A stretch of DNA of 64,000 bases from Winogradskyella psychrotolerans RS-3 (GTDB taxonomy: Bacteria > Bacteroidota > Bacteroidia > Flavobacteriales > Flavobacteriaceae). The stretch is from NCBI RefSeq assembly GCF_000427335.1, contig NZ_ATMR01000098.1, forward strand, positions 1-64,000. The letters run 5' to 3'. The notes under the pieces were generated by a model. That model worked only from the letters and a program-made list of their open reading frames with translations. It searched no databases and was not told the origin of the DNA. This document shows, one piece after another, positions 1,701 to 8,402 of the stretch; the stretch's first letter is position 1; each line of letters begins with the position of its first letter. The position numbers and the translations under genes were made by a program.

Positions 1701-3417
1701 GCGATTGGACTATCTCTAAACTCTACTGTTATTGAATTCGCAGAACCCGAACAAATACTCTCTAATTCAAAATCAGCATAATAAATTCCAGGCTCAGTTA
1801 CACTAATAGTCGATGATGTTTCACCTGGTATAACGATACCATCTTTATACCAAACATGCGTTGCATTATCAAGTCTTGTATCTAAAACAACCTCTGTACC
1901 ATCACATGGAGCATTCCCACGTTCAATAGTCATGTCATCACCTAAACTTCCCCCTAAATTAAAACTACCTGCTTTAATAAAAACACCCGAATCATAGGCG
2001 TTATCCCTATCATCGGCAATAACCAATTTTATTGTATAAGTTTCTCCAGAAACAACTGCAGACCTCGCCGTAAAAACACGTGTTCTGCCATCAAATGCTA
2101 TTGGGGGCTGACCATTAGGAGTATAACCACCAAAATACCGTTCATTGATACCCCCACACGGTGCACCATTATCAGGATGTATATTCGTTACTAAAATAGG
2201 TTCATTAGAATTTGGTAAAACTGCTAAATTAGAAACATTACCAGAGGAATCCGTTAGTAGAAAAGCAAAAGCATCGGAATAATCACATTCAAAACTCCCC
2301 ATATTATACTCCTCAGAAGCCATTAAAAAGTCAAAACTAATACTATCCGCTAAAGGAATAAAATCGAATTGAATAGAGCTAGCATTATGAGAATCAACAC
2401 CAAGTGCTAAGTCTAAACTATCATCACCAGGCCAAGCACCTGTTCCTTCGCTTAAGGTTGTATCATTAGGCCCACCTGCATCACTAGCTTCACCACTGGT
2501 TAGTAACAAGCCATCTTCAAAAGGAAAATCAGTTCCATTACTAAAAAATAACCGATTCCATTTGGCTCATCAGTACTATGAGAAATTCCTGTTGAGGCAA
2601 TAATATTAGATACTGATGCACATGGACTATTTACTAAAACATCTTCAATTAATTGCTCTGGAGTAAACAAATCTTGATCTACCACAACATTCGATCCCAA
2701 AACAAAAACGGTGATTATATCTGTATCTGAACATTCTTGTGGGTTAGCATCCGTAACTGTTAAAGTAACTGTATACGTACCCGGATTATCAAAAGTATTC
2801 GTAACATTAGGCCCTGAAGCTTCATTTCCTTCTCCGAAATCCCAATCATAAGTAGCTCCCGTATCATCTAAGGAAAAAGTTGCACTTCCAGAAAAATCAA
2901 TAGATTCTCCGGGTAGAACACCTACAACTCCAGCATTATTAATTGCAGGAGTCGTATTGTCGATAGAGGCTATAACATCCTGACAAGCCGTAGCACATAG
3001 AATATCGGCTTCCCAACCTGGACTAGTTCCATTAGCGTTGGATATAAACTCAATGGTTAAGCAACCAGAAGTGTTAGTCTCAGAAGCTCTAACATTGAAA
3101 GCGCCAACGGGCCCAACATAAGTTCCTATTAATGGTGCCGAAGTATTATTATCACCATCATAAATTCTCATCACATCTTGGTCATCCCCGGTTTGCGTGA
3201 AAAAAGATTGAAAATCAAGAATGGTAAACTCACCCGCGTTTTCCGGACATATAGTAGTTACTAGGTTTTCATCAGTATCATAATTACCAAACCCTCCTCC
3301 AGAATCAAAAAACTTATCTGGTGCACAACGTGTAAACGTTCCGTTTTGCATTGATATATCTTGAGCAAAACTAATTATAGAGATGATTAAGGCAAGAAAA
3401 CATAAGGTTTTTTTCAT
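1..3417 (-). CDS. Large secreted modular adhesin (CUB-like, PKD, choice-of-anchor L, repeats); 3' end outside window, one frameshift
   Basis: The protein starts with a signal peptide (MKKTLCFLALIISIISFAQ) and was not matched to a named gene. Visible domains in order: a CUB-like region (residues 20-145, includes RIYDGDN), a PKD domain (about 160-245, YDWDFGEG), a choice-of-anchor L domain (about 252-440, with GTDFPFEDGLLLTSGEA), an Ig-like region (about 490-565, VWYKDGIVIPGET) and then a series of ~95-residue repeats running off the left edge. The reading frame breaks at the six-A run 2543-2548: as given it ends in an out-of-frame tail at 2500, but one added base restores the anchor-L sequence and an open frame to base 1. 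Family knowledge suggests export by the type IX secretion system and cell-surface or extracellular adhesion; the C-terminal sorting domain that would prove it lies outside the window. Confidence 0.8.
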
Positions 3418-3553
3418 AATTCAATACTTCAATTCAATTACGCTTATACTTATGAGTTAAAACAAAAAATGACGCGTAAATTTGGTTGATCACGAAATTT
3501 AGTCAAATTATATTAATTGACTTAATTTATAGTTATAAAACATCATCTAAAGG

Positions 3554-3586
3554 TTGAACTTTTAAGCTTGATATTTCATACTTTTG
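3554..3586 (+). promoter_or_regulatory. Bacteroidota-type promoter of nfu
   Basis: A TTG at 3554-3556 is followed after 22 bases by TACTTTTG at 3579-3586, matching the TAnnTTTG -7 consensus. The nfu ATG at 3599 follows closely. Confidence 0.65.
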
Positions 3587-3598
3587 CAAATAAAAAAG

Positions 3599-4501
3599 AT
3601 GTCACAAACTAAGATTTCCATAGTCTCTACTTCTAACGACGCCATTAAGAAATTTGAGGCTGATCGATTTTTAACCAATCATAACAGTTTTGAATTCAAT
3701 AATATAGACGACGCCAAACATTCTCCTTTGGCTCAGCAATTATTTTATCTTCCATTTGTTAAAAAAGTATATATCGCTTCAAATTTTATAGCCATAGAAC
3801 GTTACAATATCGTTGAATGGAAAGATGTAGAAAATGAAGTTGCGCAACAAATTGAAGATTATTTATCTAAAAATGATATTGTAGTAAGTGAAGATGCTAT
3901 AAAACCTAAGGCTGCGGTAACTGTATATGCAGAAAGCACACCTAATCCTGGTGTATTAAAATTTGTATGTAATAAAGTGTTAGTGCCAAATTTATATGAG
4001 TTTACCTCAATTGAAGACGCTAAGCCATCGCCTTTAGCGACAGCTTTATTCCAATTTCCATTTGTGAAGAATATTTACATGGAAAAGAATTTCATTTCTA
4101 TTACTAAGTTTGATATTATAGAATGGGAAGAGATCACACTTCAATTGCGAGAGTTTTTAAAATCTTATGTTGAAGATGGCAAAATTATTTTAAATGATGA
4201 TGCTCCAAAGCAGTTGAAAAAAACAGAAGAAGCTATTGAGCAAAAATTTGAAGCTTTAGATGATATTTCAAAAAATATTATAAATATTCTTGAAGAGTAC
4301 ATTAAGCCAGCTGTTGAAAGCGATGGAGGGAATATTGAATTTATATCTTACGATGAAGCTACCAAAAAAGTTGAAGTATTATTACAAGGAGCTTGCAGTG
4401 GATGTCCATCATCAACTTTCACTCTTAAAAATGGTATTGAGACTATGCTAAAAGATATGCTGAATGACAATTCGATTAGTGTAAATGCTATAAATGGTTA
4501 A
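3599..4501 (+). CDS. NifU/Nfu-type Fe-S cluster carrier with duplicated N-terminal domain
   Basis: This 300-residue protein has two Nfu N-terminal-type domains in tandem (about residues 5-85 and 105-190; the second contains ESTPNPGVLKF) and one C-terminal NifU domain (about 215-295) with the Fe-S binding pair C266-x-x-C269 (GACSGCPSS). Nfu proteins carry assembled Fe-S clusters to apo-proteins in the cytoplasm. The ATG at 3599 was chosen because the in-frame TTG further up (3584) overlaps the promoter -7 box. The last ~200 bases occur a second time at 6341-6542, after a ~1.8 kb segment with a different gene, so something entered directly behind this gene. The gene itself is intact. Confidence 0.9.
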   Translation: MSQTKISIVSTSNDAIKKFEADRFLTNHNSFEFNNIDDAKHSPLAQQLFYLPFVKKVYIASNFIAIERYNIVEWKDVENEVAQQIEDYLSKNDIVVSEDAIKPKAAVTVYAESTPNPGVLKFVCNKVLVPNLYEFTSIEDAKPSPLATALFQFPFVKNIYMEKNFISITKFDIIEWEEITLQLREFLKSYVEDGKIILNDDAPKQLKKTEEAIEQKFEALDDISKNIINILEEYIKPAVESDGGNIEFISYDEATKKVEVLLQGACSGCPSSTFTLKNGIETMLKDMLNDNSISVNAING

Positions 4502-4505
4502 AATT
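4279..4505 (+). repeat. Direct repeat, copy 1 (3' end of nfu)
   Basis: This stretch reappears at 6319-6545 with an offset of exactly 2040 bases and no gaps. By eye there are about 15 mismatches over roughly 225 bases, mostly at third codon positions. It flanks, with copy 2, the segment that holds the secreted protein gene at 5365-6066. Confidence 0.9.
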
Positions 4506-5364
4506 CATTAACGTTAAACGAAGACTATTCTCAAATTAGATATTATAAATGACTCAATTTGCAAATCAGAGCTAGAGCATTAAATTATAACATGCATTAA
4601 CTAAACGTAATTGTCTTCTACTACAGTTTATATCGCAGTGGTATAGCTTTTTACTAAACCGCGGCCTATGCTTAACAAAAGCATAATTCACTATAAAATT
4701 GAAGTAAAACCACTTTAACAGAAGTCACCCCTTACATTACAGACACGTTTCTATCTTTAAAATCAGAAAATTCTAAGGATAGAATATTCAGTAATGGATA
4801 TATTGCTGATGGCAATATTAAAGGCAATAAATGTATACAGATGCTCACTGAGATGTTTGTTTGTTCTAAAAAAGTATTCGAGTTTTGCTCTATAAATAAA
4901 AGAACAATTTCTAAATTCCTTTCCAAAGAACGAGATAAAGCTAAAGTCATACATTAAAATCCAAGACTTAAAAAATGAAAATAGTCTCTTAATTATCTTC
5001 TATTTCTAAATAATAAAGGTTTTTTATAAAGTAATGTTTCATTAGACAAATTGAAATTAAGGTAAAAAATTTTAAGCCCGTTTGCGACAGTAAATATTGC
5101 TAATGTTAAATCTAACCTTGAAATTTTATAACTGATGAAAATTTATTAGTTTCGCTAACTTGATATTAAAAAAACTAGATTTTCATTATCTATAAAGTCA
5201 ATGACATTTTTCTAAACTCATAAAAGTTAGGGAACATTGCAATAAAGCATTTCATAAAGCGATAATAATATTTGACGGGTTTATGTTTTAAAAAACATTA
5301 TAACCTTGAATAGGAATATTATTTAATTTAACATTAATTAAAAAATTAAACCTTTAAATAAATT
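4506..5364 (+). other. AT-rich region inside the nfu-flanked insert; possible gene fragment 4703-4957
   Basis: No complete gene is visible. One reading frame (4703-4957, + strand) is open for 84 codons and ends with TAA, but has no ATG near its upstream end (a TGA precedes it at 4700-4702). The peptide has mixed, protein-like composition (for example SKDRIFSNGYIADGNIKGNK) but I do not recognise it. It could be the 3' remnant of a gene carried in with the insert. The rest (4958-5364) is very AT-rich and looks like an upstream region for the gene at 5365. Confidence 0.3.
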
Positions 5365-6066
5365 ATGACACGTATTAAACTTCTCATTCCTATAATTTTA
5401 TTAAGCTTATGTGCTACAGAAATAAGCTACGCACAGAATACAAGCGCTAGTGAGAGCATGCGCGCCCGCGATTTAGACCGTATGCAATCTGCTGGACAAC
5501 TTAATAATAACAAATTATCTAATGCTGTAGGTTCTCCTTTTATAAAAGAATCATTTGAACTAGTAAAACTCGATAAATTTGGGGACCGCCTTTATCAAGC
5601 AAGATATAATGCAAATTTAGGTGAAATGCAGATTAAACGCGAAAACGACACCATTGCATTGAATAATTCTGAAGACATGACAATAACATTTACTTCAGAT
5701 AGCAAAACTTATAAAACCTATAATTACATAAATAAAGAAGGCATATCAAAACAAGGTTTTCTTGTTGTATTAAAAGAGAGTGAATCTTTAACTCTTTTAC
5801 AAGAAGAAATCGTAAAATTCTACGAAAAAAAGCCAGCAGTTAGTAGCTATGCTAAAGACAAACCTGCGGAATATAAAAGAGCGAATGATGTTTATTATTA
5901 TAAACAAGATGATAAAGTATCCTTATTACCTCAAAAACGTAAAGATTTTTTAAAATCATTTCCTGCACATTCAGATAAGCTCAAAACTTATATAAAGAAA
6001 AACAAAATTAGTCTTAAAGATCATGAAGATTTAATTACTTTATTTGAGTACATGAATACATTATAA
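5365..6066 (+). CDS. Secreted/periplasmic protein of unknown function
   Basis: I do not recognise the family with certainty. The 233-residue product begins with a clear Sec signal peptide (LLIPIILLSLCATEISYAQ, cleavage likely after SYA). The mature part is hydrophilic, with a GSPFIKESFE motif near residue 57 and a stretch reading RYNANLGEMQIK near residue 80, a pattern seen in small flavobacterial surface or periplasmic proteins with a beta-rich middle. The C-terminal third is lysine-rich (KRKDFLKSF...KTYIKKNK) and probably helical. The gene is monocistronic, ends before a hairpin at 6117-6160, and lies between two copies of the nfu 3' end. This suggests it was acquired as a block. Confidence 0.75.
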   Translation: MTRIKLLIPIILLSLCATEISYAQNTSASESMRARDLDRMQSAGQLNNNKLSNAVGSPFIKESFELVKLDKFGDRLYQARYNANLGEMQIKRENDTIALNNSEDMTITFTSDSKTYKTYNYINKEGISKQGFLVVLKESESLTLLQEEIVKFYEKKPAVSSYAKDKPAEYKRANDVYYYKQDDKVSLLPQKRKDFLKSFPAHSDKLKTYIKKNKISLKDHEDLITLFEYMNTL

Positions 6067-6116
6067 TCTCTATAGCTAAAAGCTGAATTAAGTTTATTCT
6101 GTACCATCTTAGATAT

Positions 6117-6160
6117 AATAACCTGCATACACGTCAAACAAATGTGTTTTGCAGGTTATT
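6117..6160 (+). terminator. Stem-loop downstream of the secreted protein gene
   Basis: AATAACCTGCA (6117-6127) and TGCAGGTTATT (6150-6160) form a perfect 11-bp stem, with an inner ACAC/GTGT pairing. The trailing T-tract is weak, so termination is likely but not certain. Confidence 0.5.
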
Positions 6161-6318
6161 TCAGAATAATGATATCCCATTTGATTGTATACTCTTATTT
6201 AAAACAACAAATCCAATACACAACATTACCGGTAGATCCCTTTCATTAACAGATAATTTGCAGATATTTTTAAAAGATTTTAATCTTTAATTTTTGAATC
6301 TCCCCTTATTGTACGTTT

Positions 6319-6542
6319 TATAAATATTCTTTGAGAATACATTAAGTCAGCTGTTGAAAGCGATGGAGGAAATATTGAATTTATATCTTACGATGAAGCC
6401 ACCAAAAAAGTTGAAGTGTTATTACAAGGAGCTTGCAGCGGTTGTCCGTCATCAACTTTCACCCTTAAAAATGGTATTGAGACTATGCTAAAAGATATGC
6501 TGAATGACAATTCTATTAGCGTAAACGCTATCAATGGTTAAA
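6319..6542 (+). pseudogene. Duplicated 3' fragment of nfu (direct repeat copy 2)
   Basis: This fragment encodes the last ~66 residues of the NifU domain again, including the GACSGCPSS cluster-binding motif and the same stop codon. It has no start codon, and an in-frame TGA at 6332-6334 blocks read-in. From 6341 to the stop I count 12 codon differences from copy 1, of which 11 are synonymous and one is not (Pro to Ser). Both copies must therefore have diverged mostly while functional. It is best seen as the leftover end of a related nfu allele that was displaced when the segment 4502-6318 entered. Confidence 0.85.
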
Positions 6543-6614
6543 ATTTTGTACCTTAAGAGTGACCTTATTGAGATTTTAGTGTCTCATTAGTATAACCCTT
6601 AAAACAAAAATATT

Positions 6615-6815
6615 ATGGCAGTATTAAAAGTTATTGAAGTCTTATCTAATTCGGATAAAAGCTGGGAAGACGCAACAAAAAAAGCAGTAAAAGAAGCTTC
6701 TAAAACTGTAAAAAACATAAAATCTGTTTATGTAAATGAACAGAGCGCTATAGTTAATGGTGACGATGTCACTGAATTTAGAGTGAATTTAAAATTGACT
6801 TTTGAAGTTAAATAG
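6615..6815 (+). CDS. Dodecin family flavin-binding protein
   Basis: The 66-residue protein has the dodecin length and layout: a short beta strand (VLKVIEVLSNS), one long helix beginning SWEDATKKAVKEASKTVKNI, and two C-terminal strands (VTEFRVNLKLTFEV). Dodecins form hollow dodecamers that bind and store flavins in the cytoplasm. The SWEDA segment fits the family's conserved helix start. It is followed by a clear terminator and then the MscS gene on the same strand. Upstream lies the nfu fragment. Confidence 0.88.
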   Translation: MAVLKVIEVLSNSDKSWEDATKKAVKEASKTVKNIKSVYVNEQSAIVNGDDVTEFRVNLKLTFEVK

Positions 6816-6843
6816 AGCATTCTATTTTCTAAGTACTAACACC

Positions 6844-6876
6844 TAACTCGATCTAAAAATTAGTCGAGTTTTTTTA
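6844..6876 (+). terminator. Rho-independent terminator after dodecin
   Basis: AACTCGA (6845-6851) pairs with TCGAGTT (6864-6870) around a 12-base loop, followed by a run of T. Confidence 0.75.
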
Positions 6877-6904
6877 TTTAAAATTTAAAATTATAAAAAT
6901 CAAC

Positions 6905-7717
6905 ATGGATACACAAAAATGGATTGACTCAGGTTACAATTTTATTATTGAGTTTGGCCCAAAAGTTATTGGAGCTATACTTATATGGATTATTGGTAGC
7001 TGGGTAATTAAAATGCTCTTAAAAGGCACTTCTAAAGCAATGAATAAGGGCGATTATGACGAAAGTTTAAAAAAATTCTTATTAAATCTTATTAATTGGA
7101 TTTTAAAAATTCTTCTCATTATTGTTGTATTAGGCACTGTAGGTGTTGAAACAACCTCATTTGCTGCTATTATTGCTGCTGCTGGTTTAGCCATTGGTTT
7201 AGCTTTACAAGGGTCGTTAGCTAACTTTGCTGGTGGAGTTTTAATTATGATTTTTAAGCCCATTAAAATTGGAGATTTAATAGAAGCTCAAGGAGAAATT
7301 GGAGTGGTTAAAGAAATTGAAATCTTCACGACTAAATTAATTGGTCTTTCTAACAAGGAAATCATTATTCCTAATGGGTCGCTTTCTAACGGAAACATAG
7401 TAAATTATACGACTCAAGGCACAAGAAGAGTTGATTTTGTATTTGGTGTAAGTTATGATGCAGATATCAAAACAACAAAAGAAGTTTTCAGTAAAGTCTT
7501 AGCTGCGCATCCTTTAATTTTAAAAGATCCCGCACCAACAATTGCTTTATCTGAATTAGCAGATAGCTCAATTAACTTTGTTGTAAGACCTTGGTGTAAA
7601 ACAGCGGATTACTGGACTGTTTACTTTGAGGTTACCGAAAGTGTAAAAGAAGCATTAGATGCGGCTGGTATTGAAATACCTTATCCACATCAAGTAGAAA
7701 TACACAGAGAAGGTTAA
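6905..7717 (+). CDS. MscS-family mechanosensitive ion channel
   Basis: The 270-residue protein has three N-terminal membrane segments (about residues 18-40, 55-80 and 88-115). The third carries the glycine/alanine-rich pore helix typical of MscS (LAIGLALQGSLANFAGGV) followed by FKPIKIGDLIEA, the start of the cytoplasmic beta domain. The C-terminal alpha/beta domain ends in PYPHQVEIHREG, a characteristic family ending. Such channels open under membrane tension and release solutes on osmotic downshock from the inner membrane. Its stop codon overlaps the stop codon of the convergent tsaB. Confidence 0.93.
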   Translation: MDTQKWIDSGYNFIIEFGPKVIGAILIWIIGSWVIKMLLKGTSKAMNKGDYDESLKKFLLNLINWILKILLIIVVLGTVGVETTSFAAIIAAAGLAIGLALQGSLANFAGGVLIMIFKPIKIGDLIEAQGEIGVVKEIEIFTTKLIGLSNKEIIIPNGSLSNGNIVNYTTQGTRRVDFVFGVSYDADIKTTKEVFSKVLAAHPLILKDPAPTIALSELADSSINFVVRPWCKTADYWTVYFEVTESVKEALDAAGIEIPYPHQVEIHREG

Positions 7718-8385
7718 GCTTTCTTTTTTAAAGCTACAAAATCCTTTAAATAATAAGGTTCAAAATAAGCGACATCTTCGGTGTCGCTTTTTTTGTGATT
7801 ATTTTCTGCTAAAAATCCCATCTCATTTGCAGAAGGTAATTTCCCGTCTATAAATACAGCATTAGGATGCTGAATTAGGCTTTTAGTCTTTTCCACACCG
7901 TTTCCTACAAAATAAACTTTATGATCCTTAAGAAGTGTGCTAAAACTCTCTTCCGTGAGGATTTCTGCTTTTATTTCTCTATGTAATTCTAAATTCGCAT
8001 TATAGATTGCCGAATACACCTCCATTCGTCTGGCATCTAACATCGGGACAATGAATCCATCTTCAATGGTCACTTGATGCGCTAAACTTTCTAAGGTTGA
8101 AATCGCAATTAATGGTTTATTCAACGCGAAACATAACCCTTTTGCAGAAGACACACCAATACGTAAGCCTGTGTATGAGCCAGGACCTTTACTCACTGCT
8201 ACAGCATCTATTTCAGAAGGTTTTATTTTTGAAATCTTAAAAATTTCATCAATAAAAATATGCAATGTTTCGGCATGCGAAAATCCTAAACTATTATCTT
8301 CTTTTAAAACTAAAGTCTCTCCATCCTTAGATAGAGAGACTGAACAATTTGTAGTTGCTGTTTCTATATTTAGCACTAATGCCAT
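7714..8385 (-). CDS. tsaB: tRNA threonylcarbamoyladenosine biosynthesis protein TsaB
   Basis: The 223-residue product has the TsaB signature of an ASKHA fold: NIETATTNCSVSL at the N-terminus and GPGSYTGLRIG at about residues 67-77. TsaB supports TsaD in making t6A at position 37 of tRNAs that read ANN codons, in the cytoplasm. The length is near that of other TsaB proteins and it lacks the metal-binding part found in TsaD. It lies downstream of the efflux genes and converges on mscS. Confidence 0.93.
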   Translation of the reverse strand: MALVLNIETATTNCSVSLSKDGETLVLKEDNSLGFSHAETLHIFIDEIFKISKIKPSEIDAVAVSKGPGSYTGLRIGVSSAKGLCFALNKPLIAISTLESLAHQVTIEDGFIVPMLDARRMEVYSAIYNANLELHREIKAEILTEESFSTLLKDHKVYFVGNGVEKTKSLIQHPNAVFIDGKLPSANEMGFLAENNHKKSDTEDVAYFEPYYLKDFVALKKKA

Positions 8386-8402
8386 TGGCTAATTGGTGTT
8401 TT

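Follow-up and report, generated by a model that had tools for sequence, protein, structure and literature searches.

This report concerns the 3' end of the gene nfu and the DNA downstream of it in the marine bacterium Winogradskyella psychrotolerans RS-3, in a stretch of 64,000 nucleotides (contig NZ_ATMR01000098.1, positions 1 to 64,000, hereafter the window). The nfu end occurs twice: the intact gene ends in copy A, and 2 kb further downstream a second, stranded end (copy B) lies in front of the genes for dodecin and for a mechanosensitive channel, mscS. The two copies enclose an insert of ~1.8 kb with a gene for a secreted protein of an unnamed family, for which we use our own label sec. 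The best explanation of the whole, to which we give a probability of about 0.6, is that the interval between nfu and mscS is a recombination hotspot that trades resident sec copies, through repeated homologous recombination at the nfu end with an additive outcome. Judged by sequence comparison, the working nfu end is probably borrowed, with the native end stranded downstream.

The two ends form a direct repeat of 228 nucleotides (4278-4505 and 6318-6545) that aligns at 93% identity, gapless and with an offset of 2040 as the original prediction had noted; the similarity ends at both edges. The repeat spans the NifU-like domain of Nfu (PF01106, residues 229-290 of 300). Between position 4301 and the stop codon, the copies differ in 12 codons, in 11 of them silently and in one with an amino acid exchange (CCA to TCA at 4307, Pro to Ser), the same numbers as counted before; immediately upstream, codon 4295 has a silent difference and the GAA at 4292 is an in-frame TGA in copy B. 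If 12 substitutions are drawn at random with the same number of transitions, the mean is 8.2 amino acid changes, and none of 20000 draws had one change or fewer. Across positions 4287-4501, copy B has only two states that are absent from the intact nfu ends of 67 genomes (the window's own included): position 4293, which is within the TGA, and position 4307. Because of this silent divergence, combined with the in-frame TGA, the Pro to Ser exchange and the two bases unseen in the 67 intact ends, copy B probably served as a functional gene end until recently, and its decay is under way.

For the ancestry of the two ends, the nfu loci of 66 other Winogradskyella genomes were compared; 68 genomes of the genus were searched, and 67 have a full nfu, including the window genome. 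Four genomes were compared with the window over its length: the nearest is a sister genome, G024 (mostly 89-97% identity per kb, lowest 79), followed by G006 (W. costae) and then G061. The nfu body (3599-4277, with a Nfu_N match; all genes and remnants are on the plus strand unless stated otherwise) is of the vertical type, with 97.5% identity to G024 and 92% to G006 (both over 3605-4278). The intact 3' end, copy A (4278-4501), is of the G006 type and differs from G006 at 2 of 203 nucleotides and from G024 at 14 of 203. There are 70 informative sites at which the window follows one of these two genomes: up to position 4252, 46 of 55 agree with G024, and from position 4289 onwards all 15 agree with G006; two more, one to either side of the break, match neither. 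A break as sharp as this one at 4252-4289 was found in none of 20000 permutations. Synonymous distances (dS) flip accordingly: the body has a dS of 0.135 to G024 and 0.52 to G006, the intact 3' end of 0.46 to G024 and 0.047 to G006. In the tree of the bodies, the window genome and G024 are joined (99/92), and in the tree of the ends, copy B (6318-6541) pairs with G024 (92/91) and copy A stands beside G006.

The sequences behind the two stop codons point in the same direction. Copy A is followed by a spacer of the G006 type and then by sec. Copy B is followed by a native-type spacer (6542-6614) whose first 31 bases are identical to those of G061, and then by dodecin (6615-6815, PF07311). The original prediction had suggested a comparison of this interval across relatives, with a search for genomes in which dodecin directly follows nfu: this arrangement does exist, for example in G061, the working end and the body of nfu differ in ancestry, and the downstream copy looks native.

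The original prediction also had recombination with foreign DNA bring in sec; that the gene is new cargo is not supported. Of the 67 genomes, 31 have a sec gene between nfu and mscS, and one more has a fragment. Seven arrangements of the interval exist: dodecin only (28 genomes), sec only (11), sec followed by dodecin (10), neither gene (7), dodecin followed by sec (6), two sec genes followed by dodecin (4) and a sec fragment followed by dodecin (1). Gene turnover is thus high at a fixed place. Among 79 loci, the order nfu, dodecin, sec, mscS is found in records named Psychroserpens and Algicola, and mscS followed by sec in Olleya and several Flavobacterium loci; for Kordia and the Chryseobacterium loci, the stretch covered shows sec but none of these neighbours. 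Sec is a resident, fast-changing gene and no newcomer: new or exotic cargo is rejected because the family is resident in the nfu-mscS block in Winogradskyella and in related genera such as Psychroserpens. A mobile vehicle for sec was considered too and rejected: the window protein matched neither phage nor plasmid records at E 1e-5, and in viral contigs, ten stretches fitted the pattern of the family and none was confirmed.

At the limits used, the sec protein of the window has no family match in Pfam, NCBIfam or PHROG, and of 35 sec members no more than two matched any one listed family; the best E-values of single members were 4e-05 (Pfam) and 8e-04 (NCBIfam), which we take as chance. The best sequence match in PDB has an E-value of 0.08. 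A structure model (predicted local distance difference test, pLDDT, 86.6) had no Foldseek match in PDB with E up to 0.001, and its best VIA match had a Z of 4.5 over 52 N-terminal residues; from such model searches, neither a new fold nor its absence is established. Two relatives show remnants in the interval: G010 has a C-terminal sec fragment of 51 codons directly 3' of nfu and 5' of dodecin, a remnant of a lost copy, and in G006, at about +2100 past the nfu end, there is, by eye, apparently only a decayed dodecin remnant downstream of sec.

The inserted block itself was probably composite already on arrival, because two older remnants lie within it, a decayed copy of sec and, as judged by aligning relatives, a relic of an nfu end. 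The limits of the decayed copy (4590-5015) are approximate and were taken from the alignment; its homologue in both G020 (W. ludwigii) and G007 (W. psychrotolerans) is the first sec gene. The relic (about 5092-5150) is heavily eroded and was placed by its counterparts in G006 and G007; taken alone it is not significant. It is followed by the intact sec gene (5365-6066), which encodes a protein of 233 amino acids with 92% identity to the G006 counterpart, by an inverted repeat that looks terminator-like by eye and is also present in G007 (6118-6159), and by the right junction zone (6210-6317). The right border of the variable interval is mscS (6905-7717, PF00924 and PF21082). The middle of this gene (7150-7650) is hypervariable, with a similarity of 0.67-0.83 to G024 and G006 (adjoining segments mostly at least 0.9) and of 0.90-0.92 to G061; G024 and G006 share 0.72-0.80 with each other in the same stretch.

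Sequence remnants in relatives suggest that the same spot was struck more than once, because decayed nfu ends lie beside the sec genes of G007, G006 and G016. G007 has three such relics, between its two sec genes, past the second one and before dodecin, none of which was equalled in 2000 shuffles; the second runs on into the same post-stop sequence as copy A of the window. G006 has two relics at the places that correspond to those of G007 (3 of 2000 shuffles each), and G016 has one, in register with the native dodecin spacer (1 of 2000). The gap between nfu and sec in G053 was equalled in 29 of 2000 shuffles. In addition, G020 has an A-type end on a distant body: its p-distance to G006 is 0.06 in the end and 0.19 in the body. 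The relics surfaced only with the more permissive search that uses tails of the same or close genomes as queries; a profile of the nfu ends of the genus detected copy B but no relic. The shuffle counts are not free of selection: the first relic test covered 136 gaps, most of them null, and 11 later tests were partly preselected from those results and from reading the alignments.

A scan of 299 genomes of the family for two nfu-end matches (283 of them gave a match with E at most 1e-13, and two of the 299 are from Winogradskyella) returned only the window genome and G115, whose two matches sit on separate contigs of an assembly with 6% contamination. No second fresh adjacent pair of nfu ends was thus found in these 299 genomes, at a threshold that is blind to decayed relics.

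The events would have been as follows. Donor DNA of a haplotype resembling that of W. costae and W. psychrotolerans, with an nfu end, a decayed sec, an old nfu-end relic and an intact sec, would have entered an ancestor of the window genome and crossed over in the 3' quarter of nfu, at 4252-4289. The donor DNA would have been added and not exchanged, so that nfu was rebuilt with the incoming end; the native end, still joined to its own spacer and dodecin, would have moved 2 kb downstream, where its decay began. We infer homologous recombination of the RecA type with the nfu end as its anchor, either as a single crossover with a joined donor or with one homologous and one illegitimate end. The process would have been serial, each added unit carrying its own nfu end and with it the next landing site. 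Additive homologous recombination is favoured because there is no integrase match (PF00589) on the window's contig, in agreement with the original prediction, no nfu-mscS interval of more than ~2.5 kb in the 67 genomes, and a resident cargo family; mobile elements of the relatives were judged by interval size only, and other mobile-gene families were not searched. A homologous joint is present at one end of the insert, at the break within nfu. An exchange without leftovers, as in double recombination, is not what is found: a stranded end is present here, and relics are present in G006, G007 and G016.

Several observations weigh against this reading. The mosaic structure of nfu rests on the permutations and the dS flip, and tree tests alone are not significant: approximately unbiased (AU) tests on the 215-nucleotide ends reject no tried pairing of copy A, copy B, G024 and G006 (p 0.26-0.38), and neither a body of the window genome joined with G006 (p 0.135) nor a G020 body that joins the window group (p 0.34) is rejected. 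By raw distance, copy B is slightly closer to G006, with 10 differences in 203 nucleotides, than to G024, with 13 in 203. The distance of copy A to G006 is just 1%, against 21% in the 100 bases that follow and 33% in parts of the decayed sec; as a single G006-like transfer predicts similar ages, repeated exchange of the nfu end is probable. No relative gave a convincing alignment for the right junction zone. A third relic was not found in G006 (453 of 2000 shuffles), and the relic tests were not significant for G020 (293 of 2000), for the window's own relic (259 of 2000) and for the gap between sec and dodecin in G053 (123 of 2000). Finally, present-day competence is doubtful because the comEC-type gene is split by a frameshift in the assembly; a dprA-type gene is present and its match has no stops. 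The comEC-type gene (C7:125849-127885 of the same genome) consists of two overlapping frames of 425 and 291 codons, which may reflect a real frameshift or a sequencing error.

Among the other explanations, an event in the reverse direction comes closest, unlikely as we think it is: a G006-like interval would be ancestral, and an incoming nfu end with dodecin and mscS would have replaced the right part of it, joining near an old nfu-end relic. Copy B appears to begin roughly where the second relic of G006 and G007 would be expected from its distance to sec, the middle of mscS is like that of G061 (0.90-0.92) and unlike those of G024 or G006 (0.67-0.83), and such an event would also suit how long ago the spacer and the decayed sec diverged from G006. 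However, a separate event would still be required to put a G006-type end onto a G024-type body at 4252-4289, and copy B and the body pair with the same sister, G024.

We give lower odds again to a site-specific integrative element with its attachment site in the nfu 3' end, which would have rebuilt the gene in the manner of e14 in icd, lost its integrase later and left the insert as its remnant. The anatomy equals that of the published icd/e14 case (165 bp, 12 exchanges), the left break at 4252-4289 includes position 4278, which corresponds to the left edge of copy B, as an attachment site would give, and seven integrase domains are present elsewhere in the genome. Yet none of these seven is on the window's contig, no interval in the 67 genomes exceeds ~2.5 kb, the recognised genes of the interval are the resident sec family and dodecin, and sec had no match in the phage and plasmid collections (window protein) and none in viral contigs (family). 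The break also seems to differ in G020: its A-type likeness begins only after 4303 (by eye), but where permutation places the break shifts with the partner chosen (4303-4306, 4270-4276 or 3745-3754), which makes this argument a weak point. The likeness to elements that enter at 3' ends, as seen by the original prediction, holds for the rebuilt end and the stranded other end, but is anatomical only. A chimeric assembly, or contamination with DNA of a second Winogradskyella, is very improbable even with an assembly in 219 contigs: contamination is estimated at 0.44%, positions 3400-6084 align in one piece to the independent assembly of G006 and positions 6318-8393 in one piece to G061. We give least credence of all to a simple tandem duplication within the genome followed by decay. 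It would yield a partial downstream copy, but a decaying duplication would not differ almost only silently, as the original prediction had argued, none of the random draws did so, and the copies differ in their spacers and tree neighbours (an AU test of A with B is not significant, p 0.32).

In single-crossover (Campbell-type) integration, a direct repeat of the homologous segment flanks the insert on both sides; the insert of the window shares the flanking direct repeat and differs in that no circular donor is known here. Circularised DNA that integrates via a single crossing-over is mentioned in PMC3240628. The same source describes homology-facilitated illegitimate recombination, which shares with the window one homologous end and an additive outcome; it differs in that the right end of the insert has no demonstrable illegitimate joint and that seemingly a few tens of recipient bases were lost at most. 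Hotspots without mobile elements, attributed to recombination at flanking core genes, were published in 2017 (PMC5635113). They share the variable interval between core genes, the absence of a recognised mobile element, judged here by the integrase scan of the contig and by interval size, and the mosaic flanking core gene; in the window, the unit was added, apparently repeatedly, the end of the recipient gene was left behind and the cargo is a resident gene family. In the case of the e14 prophage in icd of Escherichia coli, an incoming 3' end likewise restores a functional gene, and a diverged end lies on the far side of the insert (165 bp with 12 exchanges and two conservative changes of amino acids); unlike the window insert of ~1.8 kb without integrase, e14 is a prophage and carries a putative integrase gene (PMC11148124). 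Integrative and conjugative elements (ICEs) beside guaA, radC and dusA are treated in PMC8627217, on which nothing here is based. What differs from these known cases, as far as the cited parts describe them, is addition instead of replacement, plus the resulting series of stranded gene ends. Judging by titles and the starts of abstracts, none of the papers that searches gave on horizontal gene transfer and recombination in Winogradskyella, or on nfu and dodecin in flavobacteria, is about this locus.

Upstream of nfu, on the minus strand (2500-3417), the window has a further open reading frame for a secreted protein, which gives the impression of being truncated or frameshifted at its end.

Tentatively, and with less than even odds by a wide distance, sec cassettes with their own nfu end could represent a recombinase-free, self-renewing insertion system, in which arrivals would rebuild nfu, regenerate the site and stack stranded ends as a fossil record of interspecies transfers. 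Hotspots kept by homologous recombination are usually scarless, which obscures their history. At this locus, the stranded gene ends are marks of past arrivals; with their help, interspecies transfers could be counted, put in order and in part dated, and addition could be separated from replacement. A short insert can copy the anatomy of an integrative element without an integrase. The locus also highlights a secreted protein family without named relative that has been repeatedly lost, duplicated and apparently exchanged.
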